The notes under the pieces were generated by a model. The model made no database searches. It was not told where the DNA came from and was given only the letters and a program-made list of their open reading frames with translations. 40,582 nucleotides of DNA from a virus, in the IMG/VR virus record IMGVR_UViG_3300030101_002855, positions 23,359 through 63,940 of that record; one strand, 5' to 3'. Below, one piece after another: positions 8,368 to 34,463 of the stretch (positions are counted from its first letter, which is position 1; each line of letters opens with the position of its first letter). The translations under genes and the position numbers were made by a program.

Positions 8368-8372
8368 TTTAA

Positions 8373-10672: not shown

Positions 10673-10687
10673 ATTTAAGAGGATATT

Positions 10688-12124
10688 ATGTCAAACGGAT
10701 TATATAGAAAACAAATAGTTTTAGAAAAACCAGATAGCGGTTTAGATATATTTTTAAAAGAAGTATCTAAATACTTTAGTCCAGAGTATCAAGCAATGCA
10801 AAGAGAACAAGGGCGTGCTGATGCTATGTTAGAATTAGAGCAAAGAAAGCAAGCAGAAGCCGAAGAAATTCAAGATGAAAATATAAAAATAAATCAGAGT
10901 AGAGAAAAACGTGAAAAACAATTATTTAATAGGCAGTTAAAAGAAGAAGGTGAACAAAATTTTTTAGATGATTTTGGTCTTATTTATAACGAAGAAAACA
11001 GAGGCACTAAGCAGGGCATAGATAATGCAAGAGCTTGGGTAGCTAGCAGTCCGAAACTAAGTGCAAATATGTACAATGTTATAGAAACAAAATTAAAGCA
11101 AGATGAGGATATGCTTAGTAAGAAAAATCAAGACACTGACAACCTAGGAAGCTTACTATCTTCTATGAATCCAGACTTTCAGTATGATAGCTCAGATTCT
11201 ATGAGGCAACTGGTTAGAAATAGTGGGGATTTTATGCTTCAAAATTCCATATCTCAAAAGTACTTAGGTGCTATGAGTCCTGAAATGCAAGTAATGTATA
11301 AGCAAGATATGTCAGGCTTATCTGAATTAGTTAAGCAAGCATTCTTAAACCCAGATGTATCAGCCCAGAATGAATTTATAAAATCTGTAATAGCTCCAGC
11401 CTATACTTCTATGGTTGAAAACTATGGAGCTCAGGGTCAAGATATATCTTCCCCTAGTATAGAAGGTCTTTTAAGTAGAGCTGGTGTTCCTATAGATAGT
11501 GATGATGATATAAATTTAGCAAAAGAACTAGGTGGAATGGATAAGCCAGCAGGTATAGGGGATGATGATGACAAGCAACCAGACCAAGATAGAGAGTATT
11601 CTAAAATTTTTGATATGCTTGCACCATTTGGAGGAGGCTCAACGCTTGCTGAGGTTGTTCCGGGTATTGTAAACCCTTTTATGTCTGCAATTACGGGTGC
11701 TCCAGAAGAAGCAGTTGGCTTTCAAAGAACAATAGGTGGTACTAGAATTGATAGTCCTAGAGGTCAAGCCAAGGTATTAAAGAGAAGCTTAGACAGAGCT
11801 ATTAATTTAAGCAAGGGTGTTCCTAAAACTGTGATGGCTGGCTCTCAACCTCAAAATAAAAAAGAATCTAAACTTGCAGAGCAAATAGAAATGATAAGAG
11901 AAGCAGTAGGTAACGCATATAACCCTGCTACTAAAAAAATTGAAGACCCTGAGATTAGAAAAATTTTTAATAAATTAGCAGGTAAAAACAAGGATGAGTA
12001 CTATTCTCTTTTAGATAGTATATTCTCAGCAAAAGATGATTTCAGTTTAGATAGGCTTATTAGAACAGAAAGAAGACCCGGAAAAAAGAAAATGAGAAAC
12101 CCTTTCTTACCAACAGAAGGATAG
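10688..12124 (+). CDS. Probable internal virion protein, 478 aa
   Basis: AGAGGATATT before the ATG. Strongly helical: residues ~30-90 form a charged coiled coil (QREQGRADAMLELEQRKQAE, AEEIQDENIKINQSREKREK). The middle is Asp/Ser-rich and has an acidic low-complexity patch (GDDDDKQPDQD). It contains a Gly/Pro hydrophobic part (MLAPFGGGSTLAEVVPGIVN) and ends in a basic segment (RRPGKKKMRNPFLP). No recognised family. Its place between two large structural genes, with tight spacing on both sides, suggests an internal or ejection protein. Confidence 0.55.
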   Translation: MSNGLYRKQIVLEKPDSGLDIFLKEVSKYFSPEYQAMQREQGRADAMLELEQRKQAEAEEIQDENIKINQSREKREKQLFNRQLKEEGEQNFLDDFGLIYNEENRGTKQGIDNARAWVASSPKLSANMYNVIETKLKQDEDMLSKKNQDTDNLGSLLSSMNPDFQYDSSDSMRQLVRNSGDFMLQNSISQKYLGAMSPEMQVMYKQDMSGLSELVKQAFLNPDVSAQNEFIKSVIAPAYTSMVENYGAQGQDISSPSIEGLLSRAGVPIDSDDDINLAKELGGMDKPAGIGDDDDKQPDQDREYSKIFDMLAPFGGGSTLAEVVPGIVNPFMSAITGAPEEAVGFQRTIGGTRIDSPRGQAKVLKRSLDRAINLSKGVPKTVMAGSQPQNKKESKLAEQIEMIREAVGNAYNPATKKIEDPEIRKIFNKLAGKNKDEYYSLLDSIFSAKDDFSLDRLIRTERRPGKKKMRNPFLPTEG

Positions 12125-12125
12125 T

Positions 12126-15100: not shown

Positions 15101-15755
15101 CAGAGGTAATTTTATGCCTATTCTAAGGCTAGGTATGGCAGGGTTTGCAGGTGGTACTATTACATTAAAATCTAAAGCTTGGTTAAAAGAACAGATTTCT
15201 GGGGAAAGAGTATTTAATCCAGATGAGAAGATACCAGAAGATTTAATGGATGTGGTAGAAAATTTATCTGCTGTAGGTGCTTTTGGTTTTATGGGGGATG
15301 TAATATCTGCAAGTATGGAAGAAGGTAGAACTTACTCAAACGCAATAAAATTCTTAGCGTATCCACCCTTTATGTCTGATTTAAACAACCTAATGTTTAA
15401 GTTTATACCTGCACTAGAAAGAGACTTTTCAACATATCAAGCTGATGCATTTGCTAGGATGCCAACTAGATTACTTAGGTTAACAGGTTCTTCTTTTCTT
15501 CGTGAAGGCTCAAAACAAATAGAAACCAAGGGATATAAGCTCGATAGAATAAAAGGAACTAAAGCCTTAAGAGTCAAGAAAGTTTTAAATATGCTAGAAA
15601 AAGCAAAAGAGCCAAAAGATTATGATAAAGCATATGAAGAAGTTAGTGCTTGGAATAAATCATTTCCTCAGTTTCCTATACTAATGTCAGATATAAGTAT
15701 GAAAAAGATAATGCAAAGAAAAATGCGTAGATACAAGAAAAGGGTTCTAGGGTAA
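12126..15755 (+). CDS. Large internal virion (ejection) protein, 1209 aa
   Basis: The largest gene here, with AGAAGGA before the ATG one base after the upstream stop. The N-terminal domain (LSSYDDDKLFTSIIKKYPEY) is the 'YsDdeLfxxIxxKYPxY' segment found at the start of many phage polyvalent/ejection proteins. Residues ~95-260 are Gly/Ala-rich with several hydrophobic stretches (LLSFAMPVDLVTTLAGGGIG), able to insert in membranes. The middle is helical and basic. The later part (TASKIGLGYAPLLNVTQPMI; FTQFKRFGLRQTNYLKDLF) resembles C-terminal regions of polyvalent-type proteins, from memory. It lacks a visible lytic transglycosylase motif. It is expected to be ejected with the genome to bridge the envelope; that is inference. 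Confidence 0.65.
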   Translation: MTRQKLLSAFRNQNPNLSSYDDDKLFTSIIKKYPEYRDQLDNPYEFDSSQLLSGLPNFVKDAYNQSITGMAEEMSTGQKRFDLSGYEPGVLEDIGAGLLSFAMPVDLVTTLAGGGIGGAALKSTATKFITKKLAKNGVKGNVARAIAQKTAVNVGRQTAGLATYEGFKSAFTQKLENGDIKPEEVVKDTMSGALLGGSMAGTGAYLTTKGWSTMSRVLAETGVLGTTIPLSEGEVPEPQDYVNAAGMMLGIKAVGGAIGFPSKLKNFVLEGRKTGYKKELVKEDLAKDFGVAVGKLDDVARRQTETYLDSKGNKWNIISPEGRKKIKLVNYNTGESKVVKDSDFSLQYRLADEAQIPLEKIMPFRVKNLKNLEASQSMDNSKKQLLRNSALSKKKSSTLSELDPKKDKLGLEDMTPVELDRYRNILLKRQSIGDAINKLKTEGWVTQESKYSMFKEDFFPKPIKGIMEGLTRAKYRGSQKAPVRKYFNDIGQYQVDRDALNGEYLGRLMQTGLFNPTKKQLSRFKKPGMSNKDVEGAYYKNLHDLVKEGKLPEVNAVTSLIAQRFTASGGQIPGFQQNYVPGMMKKDLADIIFDDMVKAVDKKSEIARAIKSDFNYTDNDFILNMVSDPDKWIKKNPKVAEYLNTLIQNSMSKFKKETRSLISANVESGSGLQYLRAYQKVGRGLSEELFNTFGNLEKPKKFKIPEELLENNLKTLLSRYATKAADRTAFVKNFGVKGEKFRALVNKAEPEDDRIMRTLHHHVKGDIEYHSSYNYSPRTKEVWQKVMEWETASKIGLGYAPLLNVTQPMISSALEAGYLPFFKGLISLSNKKTRELIERSGVTNYSMFAEMMGHSKGTRLSSKVAETLGKYSGFTGINKLNQITAASTAKVLVDDMFKIVKGRGIRGKIKASRGWASNKLEKLGIDPNKSRLTDKDYITAMSKFARKTQLQKDILEDPLLFNDPRARMFTQFKRFGLRQTNYLKDLFISDLSRGNFMPILRLGMAGFAGGTITLKSKAWLKEQISGERVFNPDEKIPEDLMDVVENLSAVGAFGFMGDVISASMEEGRTYSNAIKFLAYPPFMSDLNNLMFKFIPALERDFSTYQADAFARMPTRLLRLTGSSFLREGSKQIETKGYKLDRIKGTKALRVKKVLNMLEKAKEPKDYDKAYEEVSAWNKSFPQFPILMSDISMKKIMQRKMRRYKKRVLG

Positions 15756-16690
15756 TGCCTAAAAGTATCAATGAATACTTCCAACCTTCTTCTACTAATG
15801 TTCACAACAATATAGATGACTTAATATTACAAGCCGAACTAGATAAACTAGCACAAACTGGTAGTATGCGTGCAGATACTAGACCTCAGTACATAGGTGG
15901 AGTACACCCTTTTGTAGAGAACATAGCTCTGTCTCCATTACTTCAATTAAAAAGTCTTGGTAGTGTAGGTAAAAAGATTTTAGAAAAAACTGGTCTACGC
16001 AATCCAATATCTCATTATACTAGAGCACCTGCGTTGGGCGGTATAATGAAATCGGGTTCAATCAGAGGTCGTGAAGCATTTCCCGGAAAGCCATTTAAGA
16101 GAGACACACCACCCGCAGTCTCGAAATTAATTAAAGAACTCGAAGAAAAAACGCTATCAAGTGCTGATGAGTTGCAATTTTATAAGGATGAATTAATACC
16201 GGGTTCACCATCGGTTTCGGTGACAAGAGACCCTATGTTCCTATCTAGACCTCACAAAAGTATAGGTACAGATATTAAGTTAGTTATGGATAGAGATGAA
16301 TTAATTAAAAAGGGGTTAAAGATTCAACCTTTTGTTCACAGTGGATTTGAAAAAGTTTCTGACTTGAGTAAAGCCGGTCTCGGAAAAGCTATGAATAGAA
16401 TATTTGAGTTTGAAGAAAGAGTTAGGGGTAATATTCCAGTAGAAAATATTAAGCTTATAGATATATTAAAATTTCCTAAGTGGAAAATGGAAGAAGATAT
16501 ACCAAATGTATTAAGAAGAAAGTCTAATATTCTAAGTAAAGTTATTTCAAGTGGAATACCTATGGTTATGAGTGATAAAGCTAAGAGTCAAATTTTTAAT
16601 ATGCTAAAAAACAAAGAGCTTTTAACAAGTAGAGAAATTAGAAAAATAACTAACACTCCAACATATAAGTTCGACCCATTTAAGCGTTAA
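15755..16690 (+). CDS. Possible ADP-ribosyltransferase-fold protein, last gene of the virion operon
   Basis: TAATG overlap with the 1209-residue ejection protein. After a ~80-residue linker comes a compact domain with three ordered motifs: SHYTRAPALGGIMKSGSIRG (His87-Tyr88-Thr89), PSVSVTRDPMFL (Ser/Thr strand, 152-163) and FEFEERVRGNIPVENIKLID (Glu-rich strand, 217-236). His ... Ser-x-Ser/Thr ... Glu is the general layout of ADP-ribosyltransferase (R-S-E/H-Y-E) folds, and 'E-x-E-E-R-V-x-G-x-I' after 'LVMDRDEL' recurs in proteins linked to phage ejection genes, as I recall. It might be ejected and modify a host target. The stop shares TTAA with the opposing helicase gene. A purely structural role is the alternative. 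Confidence 0.5.
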   Translation: MPKSINEYFQPSSTNVHNNIDDLILQAELDKLAQTGSMRADTRPQYIGGVHPFVENIALSPLLQLKSLGSVGKKILEKTGLRNPISHYTRAPALGGIMKSGSIRGREAFPGKPFKRDTPPAVSKLIKELEEKTLSSADELQFYKDELIPGSPSVSVTRDPMFLSRPHKSIGTDIKLVMDRDELIKKGLKIQPFVHSGFEKVSDLSKAGLGKAMNRIFEFEERVRGNIPVENIKLIDILKFPKWKMEEDIPNVLRRKSNILSKVISSGIPMVMSDKAKSQIFNMLKNKELLTSREIRKITNTPTYKFDPFKR

Positions 16691-18018
16691 AAAGGCTTAG
16701 GTGTACCACTTACATTCTCTCCTCTACCTCGTGCTAACTCTACTGCCTCAGATTCTGTATTAGTAACTAAACAACTATTACCATGATAGCCAACCTCACA
16801 AGAGTTGGTACTGCCATATCTATTCTTAGCAACTATAAGTTCCAAGAAACAATCACTGTTGCCATCATCTCCATACCTAGATACCCAAGGATAATGTGAA
16901 AATACAACTATCTCTGCATCCTGTTCTAAATTACCAGACTCAGCTAGGTCAGATAGCCTAGGTATTCTATCATTTCTATGCTCCATATTCCTATTCATTT
17001 GTGATACTAATATAACAGACATATTCTCAGCTTTAGCTAACCACTTATAGCTACGACTAACATCACCTATCTTTAATCTCAAGTCTCTCCTGTCATGAGT
17101 AGGGTGTTCTATTAATCCTATGTGGTCATCAATAACTACATCTGGATTTATAGCTTTTATCTCACGGAATGTTCCTTCTATATCTCTAACATCATCAAAC
17201 ATAAAAAGCTTATCGCTGTATGTCTCTGATATAGTGGCAGATATATCACTTAATTCTACTTGGTCTATGCCTATGTTATTTCTTAAGTTCCTATACTGCA
17301 AGGACTTAGACTCCATAGCTATAAACTTCTTCATCATTTCAGTGTTAGGCATTTCTCTATTAAACATGGCTACCTTTAGTCCTCTATGAACTAAGTTCCT
17401 AGCTATGTTTGCGGCTACAGTAGTCTTAGCATTGCCGGGTCTCCCTGCTATAATAGTTACCTCACCTCTAGTCATGCCAGTTATAACTGTATCAAGTGTT
17501 TTTATACCAGTTTGTATCTGAGTAGTAGAGTTTAGTATCGAATCTTTAGTCTCGTCTAGTAAAGAATCTATATCGAATGTTTTATTTGGTTGTAGCTTTA
17601 TTATATTCCCAATAGTTGTATGTGCTTCTTCTAATAGGTTGTCTGTCTGAACTGACCTATCCTTTATACCTTTAGATATATCACTTATCTGTACATACAA
17701 TATCCTTCTTAGGTAGTAGGCATGTAGTTTCTTAGCATAAACAACTGCATTAGAAGGAGAAGTAACTGAGTCAAGAAACCCTGTTATCTCATACTTTGCA
17801 CTATACCCATCTGCATTGTTGCCAACCTCCTCACATATTGTTATAAGGTCTACATCTTCTCCATTCTTATTTAGTTTGTCTATTGCATTCCAAACTTTCT
17901 TATTGAAAGATGAATAGAAGAAGTCTTCTTCTGGTATGTACTGCTTAACTGAATCTATATAATCACTATTAGTTATTAAGCAACCCAATAAAGCCTGTTC
18001 TAATTCAATGCTCTTCAT
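16687..18018 (-). CDS. dnaB: Replicative DNA helicase, DnaB-like
   Basis: 443 residues, the usual DnaB length. The N-terminal domain (IELEQALLGCLITNSDYIDS; residues ~75-105 EITGFLDSVTSPSNAVVYAK) and RecA-type C-terminal domain are both present. Motifs: Walker A GRPGNAKT at 192-199, NREM at 220-223 with the catalytic-type Glu222, Walker B VVIDDHIGLI at 294-303, SQMNRNMEHR at 339-348 and LSDLAESGNLEQDAE at 355-369. Walker A has Ala in place of the near-invariant Gly before Lys198. It unwinds DNA at the replication fork. Its start overlaps the end of the upstream gene by 14 bases. No primase or loader is recognised nearby. Its stop lies on the TTAA it shares with the opposing gene. Confidence 0.93.
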   Translation of the reverse strand: MKSIELEQALLGCLITNSDYIDSVKQYIPEEDFFYSSFNKKVWNAIDKLNKNGEDVDLITICEEVGNNADGYSAKYEITGFLDSVTSPSNAVVYAKKLHAYYLRRILYVQISDISKGIKDRSVQTDNLLEEAHTTIGNIIKLQPNKTFDIDSLLDETKDSILNSTTQIQTGIKTLDTVITGMTRGEVTIIAGRPGNAKTTVAANIARNLVHRGLKVAMFNREMPNTEMMKKFIAMESKSLQYRNLRNNIGIDQVELSDISATISETYSDKLFMFDDVRDIEGTFREIKAINPDVVIDDHIGLIEHPTHDRRDLRLKIGDVSRSYKWLAKAENMSVILVSQMNRNMEHRNDRIPRLSDLAESGNLEQDAEIVVFSHYPWVSRYGDDGNSDCFLELIVAKNRYGSTNSCEVGYHGNSCLVTNTESEAVELARGRGENVSGTPKPF

Positions 18019-18385
18019 TTATCTCCCTTAATTTAGGTGGTATTCTATCTAAAGACTTTCTCTCATATTCTTCTCTGAGCTTAAATCTCTTACTCTCGTT
18101 TTTAATTATTCCAGTAAGATACTTTAAGTTAAATCCTTGTTCAACGCCACCTTTCTTTTTGAATCTATAAATAGATTCCATTACTATGTTATCATTTATT
18201 CTCTCTATCTCTGATAAGAAACCTGCAACATCTACATCATGTATAGTCCAGTGCTTAGATAAGGATACAATCACCTCATCTATTAACTTTAATACCCTTG
18301 GAGACCTAGCTAATCTCAAAGACTTAAGTCTAATAGACACATCTTTCTTAAGTATCTTGCCAGAACATAGTGGGCATTTAGCCAC
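18005..18385 (-). CDS. Hypothetical protein with N-terminal CxxC, upstream of DnaB helicase
   Basis: 126 residues from a GTG that overlaps the upstream stop and has GGAG ten bases ahead; a longer frame from an ATG 24 bases upstream lacks such a site. It begins MAKCPLCSGKI: a CxxC knuckle without an obvious second pair, so either a half zinc site or a dimer site. The rest is helical and basic (KKGGVEQGFNLKYLTGIIKN; KRFKLREEYERKSLDRIPPK). Being translationally coupled to the helicase, it may be a loader or helicase accessory, but no loader motif such as an AAA+ P-loop is present. Confidence 0.65.
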   Translation of the reverse strand: MAKCPLCSGKILKKDVSIRLKSLRLARSPRVLKLIDEVIVSLSKHWTIHDVDVAGFLSEIERINDNIVMESIYRFKKKGGVEQGFNLKYLTGIIKNESKRFKLREEYERKSLDRIPPKLREINEEH

Positions 18386-18623
18386 AGAGACCGCACTCCT
18401 CAATGTCAAGTGGTATTATGTCGAACATGTCTTGCCTAAGTATAGTGTTTCCTATGTTATTACCTGAAGAATCTAAAGTTCTAGTCTGATATGCAGACCT
18501 ACACTTTCCACATCTATAAACCTTAGAGCCTACAGAAGGTGGTAGCTTATCTCTATTTATACCAACTGTAGGAACACAACCATAGTCTATCCAATCATCT
18601 CCTAGAAAGTATTTAATATCCAA
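18378..18623 (-). CDS. Zinc-ribbon protein, 81 aa (TTG start)
   Basis: I place the start at a TTG eight bases after GAGAAGG. This sits 14 bases after the upstream nuclease stop and avoids a 148-base overlap that a far-upstream ATG would need. The resulting protein begins MDIKYFLGDDWIDYGCVPTV. It holds two CxxC knuckles, CGKC at 38-41 and CGLC at 77-80, separated by a Thr/Asn-rich loop: a zinc ribbon. The final GTGGCTAA joins it to the next gene. Likely DNA-binding or transcription-related; a role beside the helicase is inferred only from position. Confidence 0.6.
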   Translation of the reverse strand: MDIKYFLGDDWIDYGCVPTVGINRDKLPPSVGSKVYRCGKCRSAYQTRTLDSSGNNIGNTILRQDMFDIIPLDIEECGLCG

Positions 18624-18637
18624 GAATCTTACCTTCT

Positions 18638-18973
18638 CTAGGGTCTTGTAGTGGACTCCAGATTCTTTAATTTTTTCATAATAGTCAACAAATCCGTCAT
18701 CAATATTATACCGTATGCTTGACCTCTTGATTCCTTTACGCACTGAAGGTGTAATCCCTCTATTTGTTCCGATGGCTTCAACCATTCTGCTATCCTTTTC
18801 CGTACCTTACATTGTACGGTGTATTCTTCTATTGTTAAATCAACCTCTGCGTCTAGACCTAAAGACCTTCCATCTGAACCCCATGCTCTCGTAGAATCTA
18901 GACCGTATTCTTTTGCTAGGTTTACTATTTCTCGTTCAAACCTATTTCCTTTTGCTTTGCTTTTTGATGGCAC
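18638..18973 (-). CDS. PD-(D/E)XK nuclease, Holliday-junction-resolvase-like
   Basis: GTG start eight bases after AAAAGGA. 111 residues. It opens KSKAKGNRFEREIVNLAKEY as in Hjc/Hje-type resolvases and small phage endonucleases (basic N-terminus, then a Glu in the first helix, Glu13). Then TRAWGSDGRSLGLDAEVDLT with Asp45, and YTVQCKVRK with Gln54 and Lys56, completing E...D...(E/Q)xK. A hydrophobic strand YGIILMTDLLTIM ends the domain. It may resolve branched DNA before packaging, or act as a general endonuclease. Gln in place of Glu in the QxK position is common in some families. Confidence 0.75.
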   Translation of the reverse strand: MPSKSKAKGNRFEREIVNLAKEYGLDSTRAWGSDGRSLGLDAEVDLTIEEYTVQCKVRKRIAEWLKPSEQIEGLHLQCVKESRGQAYGIILMTDLLTIMKKLKNLESTTRP

Positions 18974-18978
18974 TTTTT

Positions 18979-19236
18979 CTAGTCCTTTTTCTTTTCTTTT
19001 TGAACGGGCTCTCTAGAAACTTCTGAATCCCCTTCTCTATTTTCTTGAATAAATCCATTTATTTTTTCCTCCATGAATTTAGTATATGTTTCTGTTTCAC
19101 CCTTCATATCTAAGTAGTTATAAAGGAAGTCACCTAAAACATCTATTGCTTTCTTATTAGCTAGAACCAATCTAGATAATGTGTTAATATCTTTGGATAT
19201 AGTTCTCTTTGTTATTTTATTATTATTTTTTTTCAT
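18979..19236 (-). CDS. Hypothetical charged protein, 85 aa
   Basis: Helical and charged: MKKNNNKITKRTISKDINTL, then RLVLANKKAIDVLGDFLYNY and an acidic/basic tail (EPVQKEKKKD). It ends five bases before the nuclease start. No clear ribosome site. The 197 bases upstream of it, up to the next gene, hold no frame with a ribosome site; I see only AT-rich sequence there. No family recognised. Confidence 0.6.
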   Translation of the reverse strand: MKKNNNKITKRTISKDINTLSRLVLANKKAIDVLGDFLYNYLDMKGETETYTKFMEEKINGFIQENREGDSEVSREPVQKEKKKD

Positions 19237-19433
19237 ATTTAATTGTATAAGTGGAGAGTAAAATTTCTATTGAATGTAGGTAGCCAACCGTTTTAACTCA
19301 ATTAATTTTTTGTTATCAATATTAATCTGAAAAACAACTGCAATCTATAAACCCACTTGCTTATGTGTTCTGCTTATGGGATTAAGTTTGTTAATTATTA
19401 TTGTAACTATTACTCCCCACTTATAATCTTTAT

Positions 19434-19568
19434 TTAACCGTCTATCTTTTTTTCTATTCTATGTAGTCTCCATATATGACTAATCTGAAGACATAACATC
19501 ATTAGCATAGTAAATTCCCAATAGGGAAAGTATTCTGCACTAAACAATGCTTCCCAATAGTATCTCAT
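19434..19568 (-). CDS. Small hypothetical protein, 44 aa, Trp/Tyr-rich
   Basis: A strong AAGGAG lies just ahead of the ATG, and the gene begins three bases after the previous stop. The sequence MRYYWEALFSAEYFPYWEFT then MLMMLCLQISHIWRLHRIEK is aromatic and moderately hydrophobic in the middle, so it could lie along or in a membrane. No family recognised. The spacing and ribosome site are what support it. Confidence 0.5.
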   Translation of the reverse strand: MRYYWEALFSAEYFPYWEFTMLMMLCLQISHIWRLHRIEKKIDG

Positions 19569-19571
19569 TTC

Positions 19572-19733
19572 TTACTCCTTTTCTTTTTCTTTCCAAGATT
19601 CAACAATGTCTTTGTTTAGAATTGATGGAGTATACTCTTCATCATCAAAAATACTGTTAGCAATCTCTATTAAAATATCTTTTGGATTTTCTTGCCCAAT
19701 CCAATACTCAAGCATTTCTTTATTTACTCTCAT
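19572..19733 (-). CDS. Small acidic hypothetical protein, 53 aa
   Basis: AAGGAG lies six bases before the ATG. The sequence MRVNKEMLEYWIGQENPKDI, then LIEIANSIFDDEEYTPSILN and KDIVESWKEKEKE is acidic and helical. Short early phage proteins with the 'ELIDLIANxxYxPxxLxxDIxxxW' ending are common and this one fits that style; I do not know the function. It heads the pair with the 44-residue gene downstream. Confidence 0.6.
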   Translation of the reverse strand: MRVNKEMLEYWIGQENPKDILIEIANSIFDDEEYTPSILNKDIVESWKEKEKE

Positions 19734-19845
19734 ACTACTCTCCTTATATTAATTCTTTGGGCGTTTTAGAGACAACGAAACAACAAAACAAAACTCAAGG
19801 TACGCCCTAACCATAGGAAACAAATTCTAATATATATATTAAGTA

Positions 19846-19868
19846 TGGGGTTAGAATAACTAACCCCA
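19846..19868 (-). terminator. Perfect 9-bp hairpin after the helix-turn-helix gene
   Basis: TGGGGTTAG and CTAACCCCA pair exactly around a 5-base AT loop, 17 bases beyond the stop of the leftward helix-turn-helix gene. The downstream (leftward) side is AT-rich but has no clean U-run, so termination would be partial, or the hairpin may protect mRNA ends. An operator is the other reading of the same symmetry. Confidence 0.45.
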
Positions 19869-19884
19869 CACTTACGATTACTTA

Positions 19885-20085
19885 CTACTTACTTAAAGAA
19901 TATGTAGCATACCCTTTAGTATTGTCAGTTAATATCTTCATACCGAAATTATTTCTCAGTTCAAAGACTACTGCCGCAAGTCTATAGATACCGAATCTAT
20001 TAACTGCGGTTTTGGCTGTAAGTTTCTTTCCTGTAAATAGGTAGTCTCTTACTTTCTCTAGTTGTGTTTTTCTTTTTCTTGCCAT
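19885..20085 (-). CDS. Small winged helix-turn-helix DNA-binding protein
   Basis: AAGGAG precedes the ATG. 66 residues: a basic N-terminus (MARKRKTQLEKVRDYLF), then KLTAKTAVNRFGIYRLAAVV FELRN split over residues 21-45, and a wing-like GYATYSL end. 'LT-x-x-x-A-x-x-x-F-G-x-x-R-L-x-x-x-x-x-x-L-R' followed by a short beta hairpin is the pattern of small phage winged HTH proteins (HTH_39-like, by memory). A regulator of the early operon is likely; the TGAGA palindromes at 30386-30581 are one candidate target, but nothing links them directly. Confidence 0.75.
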   Translation of the reverse strand: MARKRKTQLEKVRDYLFTGKKLTAKTAVNRFGIYRLAAVVFELRNNFGMKILTDNTKGYATYSLSK

Positions 20086-20499: not shown

Positions 20500-21069
20500 C
20501 TAGAATGGCATGTCAGATAAGTCACGCTTACCATTGCTCCATGAGTAGACAGAAGTTACTTTAGGAGAAGTTACTTCCTCTCCGTCTCTATTAGTCCATT
20601 TCTCATGCTTGATTTTAACTATAGCAGGTGAACCCTCACAGTTAGATGGTGAAAATACAGGTAAAGCATATACTGTTCTTCCATCTATCTCTTTTTCTTC
20701 TGGCTTTATACCTAGAGATTCACATACATCTTTGAACTCTCTATTACCACCAGAATTAGGTTGTAGCTTGTCGTCACTAGGATTCTTAAACCTAAAGAAA
20801 CCCTTAGAGCGTACCACCTTACCTACAAACATAGAACCACTGTGCTCTCCAAACATTTTGTCTGAGTTATCAGTAGCTAGTTTGAAGTTTAGATTGTATA
20901 TATCTGCTAGGTGTTTACCCCGTATAACAACATCTTCCTTCATTGTGAAGTCTTTCACATGTGCATAATAATCTCCTTCTGGAATTATTACACTAGGTTT
21001 ATCTTCAGATGGGTCGTAGTAAGACTCTCCACCCATTACATCTTCAAGTGTTGAATTAATATCACTCAT
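20500..21069 (-). CDS. Single-stranded DNA-binding protein-like (acidic DMPF C-terminus)
   Basis: 189 residues with an OB-fold-like beta-rich core: VIIPEGDYYAHVKDFTMKED, KHLADIYNLNFKLATD, VVRSKGFFRFKNPS, a region PAIVKIKHEKWTNRDGEEVT and VTSVYSWSNGKRDLSDMPF. 'PEGxYxAxVxxx' at the N-terminus and an acidic hydrophobic tip (DLSDMPF, compare DDDIPF of bacterial SSB) are both typical of phage SSB-like proteins. It overlaps the annealing-protein gene by eight bases. It coats single-stranded DNA during replication and recombination and its tip should recruit partner enzymes; the assignment rests on pattern, not on a named family. Confidence 0.7.
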   Translation of the reverse strand: MSDINSTLEDVMGGESYYDPSEDKPSVIIPEGDYYAHVKDFTMKEDVVIRGKHLADIYNLNFKLATDNSDKMFGEHSGSMFVGKVVRSKGFFRFKNPSDDKLQPNSGGNREFKDVCESLGIKPEEKEIDGRTVYALPVFSPSNCEGSPAIVKIKHEKWTNRDGEEVTSPKVTSVYSWSNGKRDLSDMPF

Positions 21070-23293: not shown

Positions 23294-24457
23294 TTATCTA
23301 CCTCCTTTAAACTTTGCTATTCTTTTATTAATATAGGAACTTAAGTCCTCCCCAAATGTGGGTACAATATGTTCAAGATAAGATGATGATATGTACTCTT
23401 CAAACTTATCATCTTTATACTTAGATATCTCTATTCCTTTGTTTATTATAATATTTAATATAGATATCCAATTTACTATTTTCCATTGATTTATAGTACC
23501 TGAATGTAGTCTAAACTCTAAGCTACCATGATAGTATCTAGAGTGAATGTTTAAAGCACAATACCTAGCATCATTGTATTTTTCTGTACTAGGAATAGAG
23601 TTCATCATTACATTATAGTACAAGTCTATTAAAGAATCCTCTGTCTCTACATTTCTCAATGAGCTATTATCTAATTCAAAATCCCTACACCAATTAGAAT
23701 CCTGTCTAGAATTAGGCATCATATCTTTAAGCATTCCTTGAAAGAATTTATATACTATACCTACATGAGCGACTTCTCTTGGAGTCATATCTAAAGAGTT
23801 AAAGTGTACATGTAGTCCACAACTTCTATTAATTATTGCATTGTATTTATCTTTCCAATCCATTAAATATACTATACTATCTAATAGCTTTATAGAATTT
23901 GCAGGGTATGATACCATTTCTACTCCAGAGAACCCTTCAAAATCTGATGTATTTATTGAGCCATCACTACATGTAGTCCAATACTCTGGTGTATCTATAC
24001 CATCTTCATCTGGGATTAGGCATTCTACTTCTATACCAACCATTCTATTAACAGGGAAGTCACTACTATAGTCTTTCTCTTCTGTTAATCTAGAAGAAAT
24101 AGGTAGTTTTAAGTTTTCTAATCTACTTATTAATATCTGTTCTCCTCCATAACAGTTTTGACAATAATAATAATCATTGCTATATGAAGCATCATCTCTA
24201 TGCTCAACTTCATTACAAGATTCACAATAGATATATGTCTCATTGAAACAATATTCACAATAGTAGGCATCCCATGCACTATGAGATTCATCGTACAATA
24301 CATGTTCTCCACAAGCATCACAACTACAATAATGTTCATAATAGCAATCCTCACACCACAGCCCATCTACATCTACTTCTATAGATACAACATTATCATG
24401 ATTATGTTCCTCTTGGCACTCTACACAAATAAAAGTATTTTTCTTATCTTGACTCAT
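23294..24457 (-). CDS. Amidoligase (COOH-NH2 ligase, Amidoligase_2 type) with N-terminal zinc knuckles
   Basis: 387 residues; AGGAG lies before the ATG. Residues 11-102 carry six CxxC pairs (CVEC, CEDC, CDAC, CEYC, CESC, CQNC), that is, consecutive zinc ribbons or knuckles. Then come amidoligase motifs: VGIEVECL (141-146), TCSDGSINTSDFEGFSGVEM (162-181), RSCGLHVHFNSLDMT (211-225) and a C-terminal YCALNIHSRYYHGSLEFRLH with SGTIN. The Glu/Glu/Asp, HxH and ...HGSLEFRxHSGT elements are those of the glutamine-synthetase-like amide-bond-forming fold, which uses ATP and Mg to join a carboxylate to an amine. It is a paralogue of the 608-residue gene. With the amidotransferase between them this is one functional cassette. 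Substrate unknown. Confidence 0.8.
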   Translation of the reverse strand: MSQDKKNTFICVECQEEHNHDNVVSIEVDVDGLWCEDCYYEHYCSCDACGEHVLYDESHSAWDAYYCEYCFNETYIYCESCNEVEHRDDASYSNDYYYCQNCYGGEQILISRLENLKLPISSRLTEEKDYSSDFPVNRMVGIEVECLIPDEDGIDTPEYWTTCSDGSINTSDFEGFSGVEMVSYPANSIKLLDSIVYLMDWKDKYNAIINRSCGLHVHFNSLDMTPREVAHVGIVYKFFQGMLKDMMPNSRQDSNWCRDFELDNSSLRNVETEDSLIDLYYNVMMNSIPSTEKYNDARYCALNIHSRYYHGSLEFRLHSGTINQWKIVNWISILNIIINKGIEISKYKDDKFEEYISSSYLEHIVPTFGEDLSSYINKRIAKFKGGR

Positions 24458-24458
24458 A

Positions 24459-24767
24459 CTAGACTCCTATGTTTGTAGTGATAACTCCCACTATAAATGC
24501 GTTTATTACCTTTAACCAATTAAGTTTCTTAAGTGTATCGTATATCTTAGACTCTACATCTTTTGATTCTATATCTATATCAATATTCTCATTACTTAAT
24601 GTCTCCATTTGTTCTATTAAGAACTCTAAGTATTCCTTGTAGGAGCTATTAACTAGAAAAGGATTTTTTCTAGCTTTTTCATACAGCTTCTCAATTACAT
24701 ACTTCTTTGATTTAAGTTTTACAGGGTCTGGAAAACCTACTAGTATAACTTTCTTATTTTTTATCAC
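24459..24767 (-). CDS. Small protein with C-terminal hydrophobic anchor, in the amidoligase cassette
   Basis: The GTG start overlaps the amidotransferase stop by 14 bases and has AAGGAG nine bases ahead; the frame can be extended upstream but only inside the neighbour. 102 residues: MIKNKKVILVGFPDPVKLKS, a helical charged middle (FLIEQMETLSNENIDIDIES) and a hydrophobic end WLKVINAFIVGVITTNIGV that could anchor in a membrane. Because it is coupled to the amidotransferase and lies directly before an amidoligase, it may position the cassette at the membrane or be the modified substrate peptide. Both are inference. No family recognised. Confidence 0.6.
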   Translation of the reverse strand: MIKNKKVILVGFPDPVKLKSKKYVIEKLYEKARKNPFLVNSSYKEYLEFLIEQMETLSNENIDIDIESKDVESKIYDTLKKLNWLKVINAFIVGVITTNIGV

Positions 24768-25707
24768 AAGTATTAACTCCTTCTGTATATTCACAATTAA
24801 AGCACACATTTCTATTATATCCATCCATCCATACTTCAGCCTGTGGTACATACTCATAACAATAGTCGCACTTTAAAGTTCTACCAGCATTGCTATTTAG
24901 ATACTTAGTAGCTGGAGAAGTGTAATACTTAGTGCCTCCCCAATTATAGTACGAAGTATATAAGTAGTCATCTTGGCTAATAGTCTCAAACCCTACAGTA
25001 TCATGATTAGTTCTACCATCAAAGCTATCAGTATCATATGTAAATATATAATCTTCTGGTACATTACTTATTGGTAGTCTCAAACCTGCTCTAATCATAG
25101 CCTCTTCCATAATGCTTCTAGTAGAAGCCCAGAATAGAACTCTAGCCTTCTTCCAATACGACACTACCATAGGTCTACCACTTTCTCTAGCTAGGTGTAC
25201 TTTCTTATTACTATCTTTTACCCAAGTAATAGCAAAGTCTCCATTTATATCTTCAAAGGCTTTACTCATCTCATTTCTATTAAGTGATTGAAATAGAACT
25301 TGGGAGTCTACATCTGGAGATGGCTTACCCATAGAACTAGCTACATAATTGTAGTTATGTATTATACCATTATGTACACCTGTAACATCACCTATGTTAA
25401 AAGGGTGAGCGTTCTCTAGTTTTACATCTCCTGTTGTTGCTAGTCTAACATGCCCCATAGCGATAGTAGTTTTTCTATCTACTTTATCAAGTATGATAGA
25501 CCAATCTTTACTATCCACTAACTCAGATGAATCCATAAGAGTCTTATATGTATATCTAGCTTTGGGATTTATTATAGAAAATCCCGTACTATCAGTACCT
25601 CTTATAGAAGATTCGTCTGTAAGCTCAGTTAGTAATCTCTTAAGAATTTCTAGCTGATTGTCATTCTGCTTTTCGCTAGTCTTAGCGAAACCGAATATTC
25701 CACACAT
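24754..25707 (-). CDS. Class II glutamine amidotransferase with C-terminal zinc ribbon
   Basis: GGAG lies before the ATG. It starts MCGIFGFAKT, so Cys2 becomes the N-terminal nucleophile after Met removal. The Ntn/GATase II motifs are all present: SIRGTDSTGFSI (34-45), AMGHVRLATTGD (83-94), ENAHPFNIGDVTGVHNGIIH (98-117, with Asn113) and DVDSQVLFQSL (132-142). Those residues bind and hydrolyse glutamine to give ammonia. 317 residues is compact: the end carries CDYC (280-283) and CFNC (302-305), a zinc ribbon, and no sugar isomerase or synthase domain, so it is not asparagine synthetase or GlmS. It probably passes ammonia to the flanking amidoligases. GTG overlap couples it to the small anchored protein. 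Confidence 0.9.
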   Translation of the reverse strand: MCGIFGFAKTSEKQNDNQLEILKRLLTELTDESSIRGTDSTGFSIINPKARYTYKTLMDSSELVDSKDWSIILDKVDRKTTIAMGHVRLATTGDVKLENAHPFNIGDVTGVHNGIIHNYNYVASSMGKPSPDVDSQVLFQSLNRNEMSKAFEDINGDFAITWVKDSNKKVHLARESGRPMVVSYWKKARVLFWASTRSIMEEAMIRAGLRLPISNVPEDYIFTYDTDSFDGRTNHDTVGFETISQDDYLYTSYYNWGGTKYYTSPATKYLNSNAGRTLKCDYCYEYVPQAEVWMDGYNRNVCFNCEYTEGVNTCDKK

Positions 25708-25731
25708 TGTTCTCTCCTTTATTTTCTGTTA

Positions 25732-27558
25732 TTAACAATATTTATCTATTCGTTTTTCTATATACTCAACACCATTTATACCTGTTACATATCTAAGTAT
25801 ATCAATAGATTGAGTCTTGTTAGAAATTATCTTATTGTAAAGACTATTGTCTCTACTTAATTCTTTAGATTTAGACATTATTTTATTAAGAAATAGTATC
25901 CAATCTTTTATAGGTTTAGATTTTACGCTACCTTCATGATATCTAAATTCTATTGAACCATGATAGAGCCTAGCGTGTATATTAGTACCTATATATCTAG
26001 CCGCATTATACTTACTATCATCTATGTAAGTATTTTCCATACCATAATAGCTATTTAATAGAACAGGTAAATTGTCTATATTGGCTATGTCTTTAGTACT
26101 CATAGTTATAGGTTTAGCATACTGAGTACTTCTTCTATCTTCTGGTATGCTCTCATATATTAAGTCTTGTATTCTAGACATTATTAGTAGAACTGATTTT
26201 ATCTCTTTAAATCCAAAGTCTATAGCGTTCATATGTATATGTACTCCACAACTCTCATCTACCTCATTCCATTCATTAGTATTAGCAGATTCTAATGACA
26301 TTAGAGCGTTATCTACTTGTTCTCCTATTATTGGTCTAGCAGTTCTAAATTCTACACCATTTTGATTTAGAGAACCATCTTCTACAACTTCAAAGTGTTT
26401 AGGTATTTCAGCACTATCTACATAATTATCTACACTATCGTATTCTGTTATAACCTCGCTTTCTATACCAACAAATCTATTAAACTCACTCTTACCTGCG
26501 AACTTATCTGGTAAACTTCTAAACCTGTATGGAGTACCTAGTACACCTGTAAGTCTCATATCTGTACAACTATAACATAGACTAGAATGATTTACTCTTG
26601 TAAATTTACTATCTTTATTTCTCATCCATCTATCTCTATATCTTCTCTTTTCGCTTGAAGTAGATAACCCTCTAATCTTCTCTAGGTCTATGTATTCTAT
26701 CTCTTTACATCTATCACAAGACCTAAAGAATGAATTAATACATGGTTCACAACTTTTATAGATATCATTAGATAAGTATAAATCTGTTATAGAACCCATA
26801 GCTCTAGCTTCTACTAATTCCATTACAGGAAAACTATCTAGACATATATCGCATGGTATTTTTGTATTACTATAACACCAATTGCAATAGTATTCTACTG
26901 TATCTTCAAACTTCTTACGCCTGTAAACTCCACCTATATTATTACAAGAGTAACAACTTTCATAGATTACAGGGTTCTGCTCCTCTAATGTACACTTGTG
27001 TATAGCCCCTCTAATGTATTTATTTAGATAGAATCTATTATTATTTTTTATTCTACAGTCAAACTTATCTACAAATGTTCCTTCTTTTAACTTTTCATAT
27101 AGTGGTAGAATGTGTCGAGTTGATTCTGTTAATTCGTGGAATCCTCTATGACAATTGTTGTCTCTAACCATATGTTTTTCTACTGATTCTTTTCTGTAAT
27201 AGTTTATTAAGAATCCTCCATATGCTACACTATGTGTATATTCTACTGTATGCAACTCTCTACTACAATATAATAGGTCAGTTGGTCTACATACTAAGTA
27301 CTTAGAATATGACCTATCTAGCTCATTAATTAATCTTACTAGGACTACTAGTCTATTATCCTTATTGGCTGAATTGTCTTTTAATACATCTACTATTCTA
27401 ACCATTCTACTATCTACATCTCTAAACAACTCACTATCTATAGCCTTACTTTGTCTATTGCTATGTAATGTTCTAATATTAATTCCTCTAAAGGATTTAT
27501 AATTAGTGAATCTTGCATATCTAGTATTAATTAATAGAGCTTCATTTGAATAGAACAT
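25732..27558 (-). CDS. Large amidoligase (COOH-NH2 ligase) with central zinc ribbons
   Basis: 608 residues; AAAGGAG lies eight bases before the ATG. Residues 1-200 form a helical, basic domain without a recognised family. CxxC pairs at 202, 225, 236, 270, 281 and 328 give several zinc ribbons. The ligase part follows: FVGIESEVITE (362-372), VVEDGSLNQNGVEFRTARP (391-409), ESCGVHIHMNAIDF (435-448) and RYIGTNIHARLYHGSIEFRY with HEGS (521-544). These match the motifs of the 387-residue gene nearly one for one, so the two arose by duplication, but this one has an extra N-terminal domain. An ATP-dependent amide-forming enzyme is expected. The target may be bound by the ribbons: protein, nucleic acid or a small acid. 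Confidence 0.78.
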   Translation of the reverse strand: MFYSNEALLINTRYARFTNYKSFRGINIRTLHSNRQSKAIDSELFRDVDSRMVRIVDVLKDNSANKDNRLVVLVRLINELDRSYSKYLVCRPTDLLYCSRELHTVEYTHSVAYGGFLINYYRKESVEKHMVRDNNCHRGFHELTESTRHILPLYEKLKEGTFVDKFDCRIKNNNRFYLNKYIRGAIHKCTLEEQNPVIYESCYSCNNIGGVYRRKKFEDTVEYYCNWCYSNTKIPCDICLDSFPVMELVEARAMGSITDLYLSNDIYKSCEPCINSFFRSCDRCKEIEYIDLEKIRGLSTSSEKRRYRDRWMRNKDSKFTRVNHSSLCYSCTDMRLTGVLGTPYRFRSLPDKFAGKSEFNRFVGIESEVITEYDSVDNYVDSAEIPKHFEVVEDGSLNQNGVEFRTARPIIGEQVDNALMSLESANTNEWNEVDESCGVHIHMNAIDFGFKEIKSVLLIMSRIQDLIYESIPEDRRSTQYAKPITMSTKDIANIDNLPVLLNSYYGMENTYIDDSKYNAARYIGTNIHARLYHGSIEFRYHEGSVKSKPIKDWILFLNKIMSKSKELSRDNSLYNKIISNKTQSIDILRYVTGINGVEYIEKRIDKYC

Positions 27559-27688
27559 CTCTTATCTCCTTTATTGCTTGTACTATATAATCTTTATATA
27601 GATAAACAATGCTACTAGAGAAAATGGTCAATAGACTAATATGACCTTCTCCACAAGAGCCAAGTAGATGATGAATTATCTCTTTCAT
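27542..27688 (-). CDS. Small membrane protein, 48 aa
   Basis: I chose the ATG with AGGAGATAGT just ahead; a longer frame upstream would run into the preceding gene. Sequence MKEIIHHLLGSCGEGHISLL then TIFSSSIVYLYKDYIVQAIK. A hydrophobic span at about residues 17-31 and a helical basic end suggest one membrane pass. It overlaps the large amidoligase start by 17 bases, so it is part of that cassette. No family recognised. Confidence 0.5.
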   Translation of the reverse strand: MKEIIHHLLGSCGEGHISLLTIFSSSIVYLYKDYIVQAIKEIRDVLFK

Positions 27689-27722: not shown

Positions 27723-28163
27723 CTAGACAACCCAGTAATACTCCATGTTAGTAGACTCACTCCATTGTTTACCAAAGAGTTCTCTACTCTTGTTAGAGTA
27801 ATACTTGAAGTCCTTTCTAAGTAGGTTACTTCTATGTGAAGCGTGTACTCTATTATCGCCCAACCAAGAGGGCATCTTTATAGAATCTGGTAAACCTATA
27901 AGTTCCATAGTATTATTGTAACCTCTAAGTATCCACTCTTCTATCATTTTGTTTTTGTAGAGTAGTAATGCTTCTTCGTATCCTTCCCACATTAGAACGG
28001 CTGGATGTCTACGCCAACCCTTGTATTTTTTGCCTTGTAGAGTTGGATTATCTACTAATACATTGTAGATTTGCAAGGCTTCTACTCTCTGCTTACCTAG
28101 TCTTCGATAGTCTAGTATTTGTGCAGATAGAATAAAATCTTTATCTGGTAAAAATGTTTGCAT
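27723..28163 (-). CDS. Pyrimidine-dimer DNA glycosylase/endonuclease V family protein
   Basis: 146 residues, the usual length. The N-terminus MQTFLPDKDFILSAQILDYR then RLGKQRVEALQI, the middle YKGWRRHPAVLMWEGYEEAL and the segment PSWLGDNRVHASHRSNLLRK DFKYY are characteristic of the Pyr_excise family: bacterial and phage relatives of T4 endonuclease V. T4 DenV removes UV dimers by a glycosylase/lyase reaction through its N-terminal amine; this group keeps the same fold, but its own activity is less certain. It helps repair DNA in sunlit water or acts as a general DNA lyase. AAGGATAATAG precedes the ATG. Confidence 0.85.
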   Translation of the reverse strand: MQTFLPDKDFILSAQILDYRRLGKQRVEALQIYNVLVDNPTLQGKKYKGWRRHPAVLMWEGYEEALLLYKNKMIEEWILRGYNNTMELIGLPDSIKMPSWLGDNRVHASHRSNLLRKDFKYYSNKSRELFGKQWSESTNMEYYWVV

Positions 28164-28182: not shown

Positions 28183-28647
28183 TTAAAAATTTCCTTCTGC
28201 TACTTGTAGACAGGTTAAACCTTCTTCTCTCCACATATCTACTACTTGTTTTCTATCATCTACTACAAATAGTATATGTTCTTTTAGATAGAACTTGTTT
28301 AACCAACCTCTTTTTAACTCACTATCTTTTAAGTATATATTCTCTTCGTCTCTCATCATTAGATGGTGATAATCTACTTCATTGTCGTATAGCCATTTTT
28401 CTGTAGCTTCTCTAGTTCTATCAGAGCGACCAGATAGAATATGTATTACATAGCCAGATTTATATAGAGAACGATTTAGCTCTATTACATCTGGATTAGG
28501 TTTATCATATTCTATAAACTCTGGATTGTAGAACTTTTTCCAATCTAGCTTACCACCTTCAATAGAACAATGTTTTATTCTATCTTGGATATTTGCTAGA
28601 GTTCCATCTAAGTCGAATATAACTATATCTTTCTTAGTTCCAAACAT
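28183..28647 (-). CDS. HAD phosphatase, polynucleotide-kinase 3'-phosphatase-like
   Basis: 154 residues. HAD motif I IVIFDLDGTLA (8-18; Asp12 nucleophile, Asp14), then ILSGRSDRTREATEKWL (70-86, motif II Ser72), Lys-rich DSELKRGWLNK (108-118, motif III) and LFVVDDRKQVVDMWREEGL (126-144, motif IV). The spacing, LDW/KKFYNPEF part and 'WREEGLTCLQVAEGNF' end match the stand-alone C-terminal phosphatase domain of T4 polynucleotide kinase, which removes 3' phosphates from nucleic acid ends; no kinase P-loop is present. With the neighbouring glycosylase/lyase, which leaves blocked ends, it would make an end-repair pair. RNA repair is the other option. Confidence 0.8.
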   Translation of the reverse strand: MFGTKKDIVIFDLDGTLANIQDRIKHCSIEGGKLDWKKFYNPEFIEYDKPNPDVIELNRSLYKSGYVIHILSGRSDRTREATEKWLYDNEVDYHHLMMRDEENIYLKDSELKRGWLNKFYLKEHILFVVDDRKQVVDMWREEGLTCLQVAEGNF

Positions 28648-32282: not shown

Positions 32283-32374
32283 TGATAACATCAATATTAA
32301 AAAAGATTTACTTCTTTATAGAATCCTTGGTTGTAATTTGTCTAGTAATGGTGCTTAAGGGGGTAGTTAAGTGA
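32282..32374 (+). CDS. 30-residue transmembrane micro-protein
   Basis: MITSILKKIYFFIESLVVIC then LVMVLKGVVK: almost all of it is one membrane span between two Lys-rich ends. The start overlaps the upstream stop (TAATG) and the stop overlaps the next start (GTGA), the same coupling as other genes here, which supports it as real despite its size. Function unknown. Confidence 0.5.
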   Translation: MITSILKKIYFFIESLVVICLVMVLKGVVK

Positions 32375-33132
32375 AAAGAGCAATAATTACCCCTGACAAG
32401 CACTTTCCTTATGAGGACAAGAAAGCCATTAAGGTTTTATGTAAAGCTATTGAACTTGTAAAGCCACAGATATATGTAGATTTAGGCGATACAGGTGAGT
32501 GGGAGTCAGTATCCCACTGGCAATGGAAAAAGAAAAAGAGACCACCTCTTGAATATCAGCTACCATTTGTACATAAAGAGATAGAAGCTGTTAATAAAGG
32601 GATGGATGTAATAGATGCTTCTTTGGATAAAGCTAAAACCAAGGAGCGTCATTTCTGTGAGGGTAATCATGAAGACTGGCTTAATAGGTTTGTTGAAGAA
32701 AATCCATACTTGGCTGAAACAATGCTCGTCAAAAATGCATTGCGTCTTAAAGAGCGTGGATACAAGTATCATAGAATCGGTAAAATGCTCAAGATTGGTA
32801 AAATTAATTTCTATCACGGTCATCATTTTGCAGGAGTTAACCACACTCGTAATCATCTCCTTAGGCTCGGTGGTAATGTTATGTATGGTCATCATCATGA
32901 TATTCAGCAAAGCTCTATTACACACATTGACGGGGTTAAGTCAGCGTGGTCAATAGGCTGTTTGAAAGATATGAGAGCTGAGGCTAATGAATGGTTAGGA
33001 AATAGACAGCATAATTGGCAACATGCTTTTGCTATTGTAGACTTTCATAAGAATGGAAACTTTAATGTTACAGTGCATCAGATAGTTAATGGTGTTAGTA
33101 CGGTAGATGGAAAGGTTTTAGATTACAAGTGA
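32371..33132 (+). CDS. Metallophosphoesterase
   Basis: GTG start by GTGA overlap. 253 residues with the calcineurin-type metal motifs in order: ITPDKHFPY (Asp9, His11), YVDLGDTGEWESVSHW (Asp40), FCEGNHEDWLNRF (Asn98/His99 region), YHGHHFAG and NVMYGHHHDIQQSS (GHHH). The central VxLGDxGEW and GNHED pattern fits phage phosphoesterases placed beside terminase genes. It hydrolyses a phosphomono- or diester; substrate unknown (nucleotides or nucleic-acid ends are possible). No signal peptide. Confidence 0.85.
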   Translation: MKRAIITPDKHFPYEDKKAIKVLCKAIELVKPQIYVDLGDTGEWESVSHWQWKKKKRPPLEYQLPFVHKEIEAVNKGMDVIDASLDKAKTKERHFCEGNHEDWLNRFVEENPYLAETMLVKNALRLKERGYKYHRIGKMLKIGKINFYHGHHFAGVNHTRNHLLRLGGNVMYGHHHDIQQSSITHIDGVKSAWSIGCLKDMRAEANEWLGNRQHNWQHAFAIVDFHKNGNFNVTVHQIVNGVSTVDGKVLDYK

Positions 33133-33893: not shown

Positions 33894-34105
33894 TGAATTT
33901 ATACGAAATAGTTGTTGAAGTTCTAGAGCATGCTGATGGTGAAAATGTTGGTATTGATGATGAAATATCAAGAGAAAGCATAGCTACTGAAGTATATGAA
34001 CTATTCTATGAAAATCAAGTAAATTCTCCATATGCCGATAATGGTTATATAAAAAACCTAGAAGAATATTGGCATTTTAGAGAAGATTTTGATGAGAACG
34101 AATAA
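33893..34105 (+). CDS. Small acidic hypothetical protein, 70 aa
   Basis: The ATG overlaps the TerS stop (TGATG). Strongly acidic: MNLYEIVVEVLEHADGENVG, IDDEISRESIATEVYELFYE and NLEEYWHFREDFDENE. Helical. Overlaps the next gene by 14 bases. No family recognised; it may be a DNA-mimic or packaging partner, without evidence. Confidence 0.55.
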   Translation: MNLYEIVVEVLEHADGENVGIDDEISRESIATEVYELFYENQVNSPYADNGYIKNLEEYWHFREDFDENE

Positions 34106-34463
34106 GCTGGCAGTATACGGAACTCTTAGGGATGGTAAGCGAGATACTTGGAAAGTTGATGGCTACTCATTAGTGTTCCCGGGTCACAGAAGATTTCCTG
34201 CCGCATTGCCAGATATGGAGCAAACTGACTTGATTGTGGAAGTAATGGATATTGACGATTATGATTTGAAAAGTTATGATAGGTATGAAGGTATATCTTC
34301 TGGTCTTTATGAAAGAAGAATAGTAAACGCATACAATAATGATGAAGAAGTAGAGGCTTGGATGTATACTATAGGCTCTGCGTTAATGCAGGGTAGTGGT
34401 GTATTTGAAATGGTTCCCAAAAAGGATTGGATGTCGAAAGAATGTCTAAAGCTCCGAACATAA
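34092..34463 (+). CDS. Gamma-glutamylcyclotransferase (AIG2/GGCT-like) protein
   Basis: I chose the ATG inside the end of the upstream gene. 123 residues. KLAVYGTLRDGKRDTWKVDG opens with the diagnostic YGTLR (9-13). SYDRYEGISSGLYERRIVNA carries the DRYEG element with catalytic-type Glu66 and the later YERR. The family releases pyroglutamate from gamma-glutamyl amines or peptides. It lies between the terminase genes, away from the amidoligases, but its chemistry is the reverse of an amide-forming step. An alternative is a BtrG-like deprotecting enzyme. It overlaps the terminase start by 22 bases. Confidence 0.85.
   Translation: MRTNKLAVYGTLRDGKRDTWKVDGYSLVFPGHRRFPAALPDMEQTDLIVEVMDIDDYDLKSYDRYEGISSGLYERRIVNAYNNDEEVEAWMYTIGSALMQGSGVFEMVPKKDWMSKECLKLRT

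Follow-up and report, generated by a model that had tools for sequence, protein, structure and literature searches.

Amidoligases encoded together with a glutamine amidotransferase (GATase) are already known in bacteriophages (PMC3890496; PMC10580990; PMC10945688). In a paper from 2023 on phages of OM43, Iyer et al. (2009) is cited for the suggestion that the amidoligase and GATase of phiEco32 modify the cell wall and prevent superinfection (PMC10580990), and the phage-ZRK32 paper proposes a role in nitrogen metabolism for its amidoligase, GATase and gamma-glutamyl cyclotransferase (GGCT) (PMC10945688). Our search of the literature returned no characterised phage amidoligase and no demonstrated substrate, the published suggestions ranging from cell wall to nitrogen metabolism. 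Here we describe a four-gene cassette in 40,582 nucleotides of viral DNA (IMG/VR record IMGVR_UViG_3300030101_002855, positions 23,359 to 63,940; hereafter the window), in which two paralogous amidoligases, AL1 and AL2, enclose a GATase and p102, a small protein representing a new family; the lineage that carries the cassette is known from uncultured bacterial viruses. Reports of phage amidoligases are common, and a stable, minimal set of four genes with the same small partner throughout gives an experimental handle on their substrate; if p102 proves to be a subunit or a substrate, the question of what these enzymes modify becomes directly testable.

The described cassettes of the LUZ24/PA11/phiEco32 type contain a COOH-NH2_lig protein (PF14395), a hypothetical protein of about 180-210 amino acids (aa), an Amidoligase_2, a GATase_6, an R2K-like ATP-grasp and a GGCT. 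The present locus resembles them in having Amidoligase_2 and GATase_6 genes adjacent or near each other, a GGCT in the genome, CxxC pairs at the C-terminus of the GATase and a total of two glutamine-synthetase-like ligases. It differs in having as its ligases two Amidoligase_2 paralogues, each with a zinc array; no PF14395 came up when the neighbouring proteins were scanned against Pfam, the second ligase being a PF12224 protein. No ATP-grasp was recognised among the scanned neighbours, and R2K_2 was unmatched in nine cassette-bearing records in a search without a working positive control. The small protein also differs: p102 is unrelated to the hypothetical protein of the known cassettes, with an hhalign probability of at most 0.4 against three of these and at most 1.9 against any protein tried. 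The idea that the N-terminal domain of AL1 is a fused copy of that hypothetical protein was likewise discarded, the comparison being negative. Phages MEP401 and MEP402 and related viral genomes (Zobellviridae) have, like our loci, an amidoligase (PF12224) and a GATase (PF13522), and a genome near 43 kb with G+C near 34% is a further likeness; the available portion of their description, however, mentions no twin ligases or small partner, and they carry a family A DNA polymerase (PMC10580990), which was not found in the nine records here, this being the only polymerase family tested. As far as the literature that we found shows, what is new is an old duplicated ligase pair with zinc arrays, a constant p102 family and no PF14395 beside the ligase.

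The genes lie on the minus strand in the transcription order AL1, GATase, p102, AL2, and recognisable ribosome-binding sites precede all of them; a scan of the cassette region for promoters and terminators gave no excess over shuffled sequence. An earlier annotation of the same DNA (the original prediction) had reported two ligase open reading frames (ORFs) of 387 and 608 aa, and their coordinates and strand were confirmed. The features of the cassette are as follows.

25732-27558, minus strand: AL1 (AL_L), 608 aa; Pfam PF12224, 3.8e-19
25735-26478, minus strand: catalytic COOH-NH2 ligase domain of AL1, from about residue 361; 13 residues 100% kept in AL1 and AL2
26566-26955, minus strand: zinc array of AL1, C202 to C331, six CxxC pairs; cysteines nearly invariant
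24754-25707, minus strand: class II GATase, 317 aa, with N-terminal Cys2 and a C-terminal zinc ribbon; GATase_6, 6.5e-17
24793-24870, minus strand: zinc ribbon of the GATase (C280, C283, C302, C305); invariant in 10 relatives
24459-24767, minus strand: p102, small partner of 102 aa with a GTG start, from a new family; in all cassettes with a contig that extends this far
24464-24468, minus strand: ribosome-binding site of AL2 (AGGAG), within the final codons of p102; ATA-GGA-GTN-stop-N-ATG in most of the near clade
23294-24457, minus strand: AL2 (AL_S), 387 aa, N-terminal zinc array and Amidoligase_2 domain; PF12224, 1e-22
24152-24427, minus strand: zinc array of AL2, C11 to C102, six CxxC pairs, weakly LIM-like

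A DNA search of isolated phages with the window gave no match, and a protein search of isolated phages returned distant amidoligases and GATases only, at roughly 20-33% identity. Close and distant relatives were recovered by scanning IMG/VR first with the proteins and afterwards with alignments. Loci anchored on GATases at least 41% identical to that of the window (numbered L071 to L122) hold 52 AL1, 52 GATase and 51 AL2 genes, and the order AL1-GATase-p102-AL2 is kept in all 51 whose contig extends to AL2, among the loci listed (L102 and L103 were checked individually); the contig of L073 stops short of p102. Loci anchored on p102 show the same order with the single exception of L070, a 20 kb fragment that holds GATase, p102 and AL2 and no detectable AL1, and judging from this case AL1 may be an add-on. 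GATases below about 37% identity (L124 onward) are accompanied by at most one amidoligase and by no p102 within the flanks available. The cassette is not a product of chance, because about 50 viral loci contain it and the pairs tested show purifying selection, with a ratio of nonsynonymous to synonymous substitution (dN/dS) below 0.45 in every one. Downstream of it, nearly all representatives encode an exonuclease, a candidate annealing protein and an SSB-like protein.

The assignment of both ligases to the Amidoligase_2 type, as originally proposed, holds: the PF12224 profile gives 81.7 bits for AL2 and 70 bits for AL1 against a curated cut-off of 22, PHROGs agrees with the Pfam assignments of the ligases and the GATase, and the model of AL1 is YbdK-like. 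AL1 consists of an N-terminal domain without known relative, the zinc array and the C-terminal Amidoligase_2 domain; its model has a mean predicted local distance difference test score (pLDDT) of 65, with the catalytic part mostly at 65-92 and one weak loop. The best structural match of this model is E. coli YbdK, a carboxylate-amine ligase of the GCS2 type (1r8g; Foldseek E-value 2.7e-5, probability 1.00, 13% identity), and a Salmonella homologue of YbdK is matched as well (2.7e-4, probability 1.00). No direct match to AL2 was found among PDB sequences. E. coli YbdK itself is a stand-alone enzyme, not known to have a zinc array, GATase or p102. The motifs reported as shared (GIExE, DGS, GVE, CGxHxH and N-H-R...EFR-H-G) are indeed found in both ligases and are invariant, or nearly so, in relatives. 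Residues E366, E368, D394, S396, E403, C437, H440, H442, R475, R521, Y522, N526 and E537 (AL1 numbering) are the ones kept without exception, and the 15 catalytic-type columns in common with other amidoligases (including ExE, DxS, HxH, R and E) are 96-100% kept in AL1 and in AL2 alike, which means that the active-site Glu and His, whose loss the original prediction had treated as evidence against itself, are retained.

Six CxxC pairs were counted in each of the two ligases, as had been described. Across relatives, C202, C205, C225, C228, C236, C239, C273, C281, C284, C328 and C331 of AL1 are nearly invariant, and all six pairs are present in 33 of 52 AL1 proteins. Over its own array the AL2 profile weakly matches LIM domains (best E-value 0.0085), a type of domain that often binds proteins; nucleic acid or the ribosome, named in the original prediction as a possible zinc-recognised partner, might or might not be what is bound. 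The two ligases were also correctly taken for paralogues: in a tree of 73 domains they group together against the single amidoligases with support of 96/87, and AL2 forms one clade (87/94), the base of AL1 not being cleanly resolved. The simplest history suggested by this sequence tree is one duplication that predates the spread of the lineage, which keeps both copies almost throughout. Such long retention of both copies makes the earlier idea of two acceptors or two steps a reasonable one, but L070 keeps the rest of the unit without a detectable AL1.

Between the ligases, the GATase with its own zinc ribbon is as originally described. It matches GATase_6 with 62.2 bits against a cut-off of 27, its residues M1, C2 and G3 are invariant (the protein starts MCGIFGF), its profile matches GlmS structures (5.5e-6), and the CxxC...CxxC ribbon is invariant in a 10-sequence alignment. 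Many relatives carry an acidic tail. Twelve of 41 distinct GATase tails, located in L075-L107, end in -PF, compared with 1 of 399 background ORFs, and 20 of the 41 have a final F together with three or more acidic residues among the last twelve; these tails are related by descent, and the window's own GATase ends NTCDKK, without an acidic -PF tail. There is weak support for the SSB identity of the SSB-like neighbour (window 20500-21069, minus strand; PHROGs best 0.011, two members); in each of the 17 cases with an available C-terminus, this protein ends in -PF. In E. coli, the SSB tip DDDIPF binds many replication proteins (PMC5872125). The -PF tails may hint at recruitment of the cassette to replication proteins, which we offer as a lead and not as a result.

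The original prediction was right that a small protein lies between the ligases, although its length is probably not 132 but 102 aa, from a likely GTG start at 24767 behind AAGGAG. The original prediction had not noticed that p102 is the most telling new part of the unit, as conserved as the GATase and without known family. Mean column identity in the near clade is 69% for p102 and 70% for the GATase, compared with 61% for AL2 and 52% for AL1, and ten p102 positions are invariant over 27 diverse members, including K5-K6, G11, K21, N35-P36-F37 and W84. It has no significant match in Pfam, PHROGs, NCBIfam, PADLOC or PDB (the best E-value against the PADLOC anti-phage defence profiles is 0.3); no relative was found in the isolated-phage collection, and the 370 stretches that fitted its pattern across 84,980 prokaryote species all failed confirmation, so that the family has so far been seen in viruses only. 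The model of p102 is helical with low confidence at both ends, its last eight residues being possibly flexible, and a fold search with it gave no match. The C-terminal stretch is hydrophobic (best 17-residue mean hydropathy 1.3-2.1). In the near clade p102 ends in IGV, and this ending is not countable as protein conservation alone because its codons carry the AL2 ribosome-binding site; in the distant clade that site follows the p102 stop, and the ending NYGI[AST] persists there although its synonymous codons vary. We accordingly set aside conservation of the C-terminus as proof that p102 is a substrate, since in the near clade it is confounded by the AL2 ribosome-binding site.

Two further genes bear on the interpretation.

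27542-27688, minus strand: p48, one-helix membrane microprotein, 48 aa, motif H-x2-G-x-C-G-[ED]-x-H; immediately upstream of AL1 in 44 of 52 loci
34089-34463, plus strand: GGCT (GGACT/AIG2-like), 124 aa, outside the operon; PF06094, 3.7e-12

The membrane microprotein said to overlap the large ligase does so, by 17 bases at the start of AL1, and is more likely 48 than 77 aa long; its one hydrophobic stretch is predicted to be able to span a membrane. Among 568 pattern stretches in IMG/VR, 140 were confirmed as p48 relatives (including L231-L270), many without an amidoligase nearby, and we rejected the idea that p48 belongs to the unit as its fifth gene, since 39 of the 80 best motif loci have no amidoligase, GATase or p102 within the flanks available. 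The linkage to GGCT mentioned in the original prediction is present in this genome too, in a gene at 34089-34463 that the prediction had not seen. A GGCT gene occurs in 14 of 16 cassette-bearing records, the exceptions being short (29 and 34 kb), and GGCT is a probable pathway partner outside the operon.

That the chemistry of the unit is glutamine-dependent amide formation on a carboxylate is well supported by protein family, modelled fold and kept residues. The GATase would release ammonia from glutamine, and an Amidoligase_2 enzyme would use ATP to activate the target carboxylate and then join to it ammonia or another amine. GatCAB, PurLQS and MurT-GatD likewise combine a glutaminase or amidase with an ATP-dependent ligase, GatCAB and PurLQS having a third, small subunit; such bridging subunits (GatC, PurS) serve amidotransferases. 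The ligases of those systems are of other families, and searches of Pfam, NCBIfam and PDB returned nothing significant for p102, neither GatC nor PurS; by analogy, p102 could nonetheless be an obligate small subunit that couples GATase and ligase. We infer a GATase-p102-ligase complex because of the fixed order, the translational linkage, the equal conservation and the L070 case, and we give about an even chance to the whole reading, in which p102 is the small subunit of a complex for glutamine-dependent amidation. The two ligases might act on two carboxylates, in two steps or as a hetero-oligomer, the zinc arrays would hold the target or a partner, and GGCT would probably remove or edit gamma-glutamyl amide products. 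The most likely target would be some protein or peptide dealt with at an early stage of infection. We observed the families, the gene order, the co-conservation, the kept columns and the YbdK-like model; complex formation, the role of p102, the direction of the reaction and the target are what we infer from them. Several points weigh against this reading: no solved structure is detectably similar to p102, whose own model is weak (pLDDT 68), the loci seem to belong to one phage lineage, in which shared order partly reflects descent, and the placement beside exonuclease, candidate annealing and SSB-like genes may be mere habit of a core operon.

Other readings turn on what p102 and the target are. 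In pupylation (Pup, PafA, Dop), two paralogous glutamine-synthetase-like enzymes serve one small protein, and by analogy the two sister ligases might act on carboxylates of p102 itself, or on its conserved C-terminus, to yield an amidated peptide or protein tag. The largely kept C-terminal end would suit such a substrate or carrier, above all the NYGI[AST] of the distant clade, maintained despite synonymous variation and a ribosome-binding site past the stop, as would the possibly flexible final eight residues. We nevertheless consider it unlikely: the near-clade IGV codons serve as a ribosome-binding site, the end is hydrophobic and the motif is broken in some members (L117, L108), and the conserved core (KK, G11, KSK, NPF, W84) spans the whole protein. 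The parallel itself is incomplete, given that p102 ends in IGV or YGI[AST] without the Gly-Gly-Glu/Gln (GGE/GGQ) of Pup, that a GATase is present here, and that Pup_ligase was found in none of the nine records (the control matched in Corynebacterium). Decidedly improbable is a new protein-modification system in which p102 is a modifier or carrier attached, amidated or capped by the ligases, or in which an SSB-like tail draws the complex to replication proteins, where it would amidate acidic carboxylates, possibly those of the SSB tip.

The need of an amidoligase for a carboxylate makes proteins, peptides, cell-wall precursors and metabolites better candidate targets than plain DNA. It is doubtful that the complex amidates carboxylates of peptidoglycan precursors or stem peptides (D-Glu and meso-diaminopimelate would make two), blocking superinfecting phages or tuning lysis, with the p102 C-terminus and p48 placing it at the membrane. 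This would agree with the suggestion for phiEco32 given in the OM43 paper (PMC10580990), with the hydrophobic end of p102 and with a p48 stretch long enough to span the membrane; yet p48 is found without amidoligases too, the p102 stretch is short, the cassette sits in an early-type DNA-metabolism operon and carries zinc arrays, and the known lipid II amidating ligase, MurT, is of another family, the Mur ligases (PMC3267633). That the ligases make a gamma-glutamyl or other amide metabolite by YbdK-type chemistry, trimmed by the cyclotransferase, fits the YbdK match of the AL1 model, the GGCT linkage and the proposal for phage-ZRK32 (PMC10945688), but is quite unlikely in view of the large zinc arrays of the ligases and GATase, which suggest a macromolecular partner, and of the scanned parts of the window, where no other small-molecule biosynthesis genes were recognised. 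Amidation of a carboxylated base in phage DNA could draw on the DNA-metabolism context and on the SSB-like acidic -PF tails of many relatives' GATases. The original prediction had placed DNA among its first choices, a preference that we do not retain: such a target is very unlikely because ordinary bases have no carboxylate and the tested base-modification genes were not found, thymidylate synthase and QueC being absent from the matches in the nine records and HMUDK unmatched in a search without positive control; no carboxylate-making base enzyme was recognised either. What the envelope, metabolite and DNA readings address is the target, and each could hold together with the amidation complex, so that the likelihoods given here are not strictly exclusive.

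The 63,940-base record that contains the window is itself composite in appearance. Its first 20 kb (1-20000, L005) is a diverged second version of the window's second half, about 66-92% identical in DNA over matching pieces, and a run of ten N at record positions 23349-23358 ends just ahead of the window, which itself contains no N. The best reading of the record is that two related phages, each of roughly 44-45 kb, were scaffolded across the 10-N gap. Four amidoligases in one genome were accordingly rejected as an artefact: because the record joins two related phages, its four amidoligase matches represent two genomes with two each.

Elsewhere, the window encodes a DnaB-like helicase, a RusA-like resolvase and the SSB-like protein. 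Just upstream of the cassette on the minus strand lie a pyrimidine dimer DNA glycosylase (PF03013, 3.7e-22; 27723-28163) and a PNKP-type phosphatase domain (1e-29; 28183-28647), both variable in relatives. The most conserved neighbour compared is a metallophosphoesterase-like protein (PHROG 221; 32371-33132, plus strand), with 87-99% identity in the compared close relatives.

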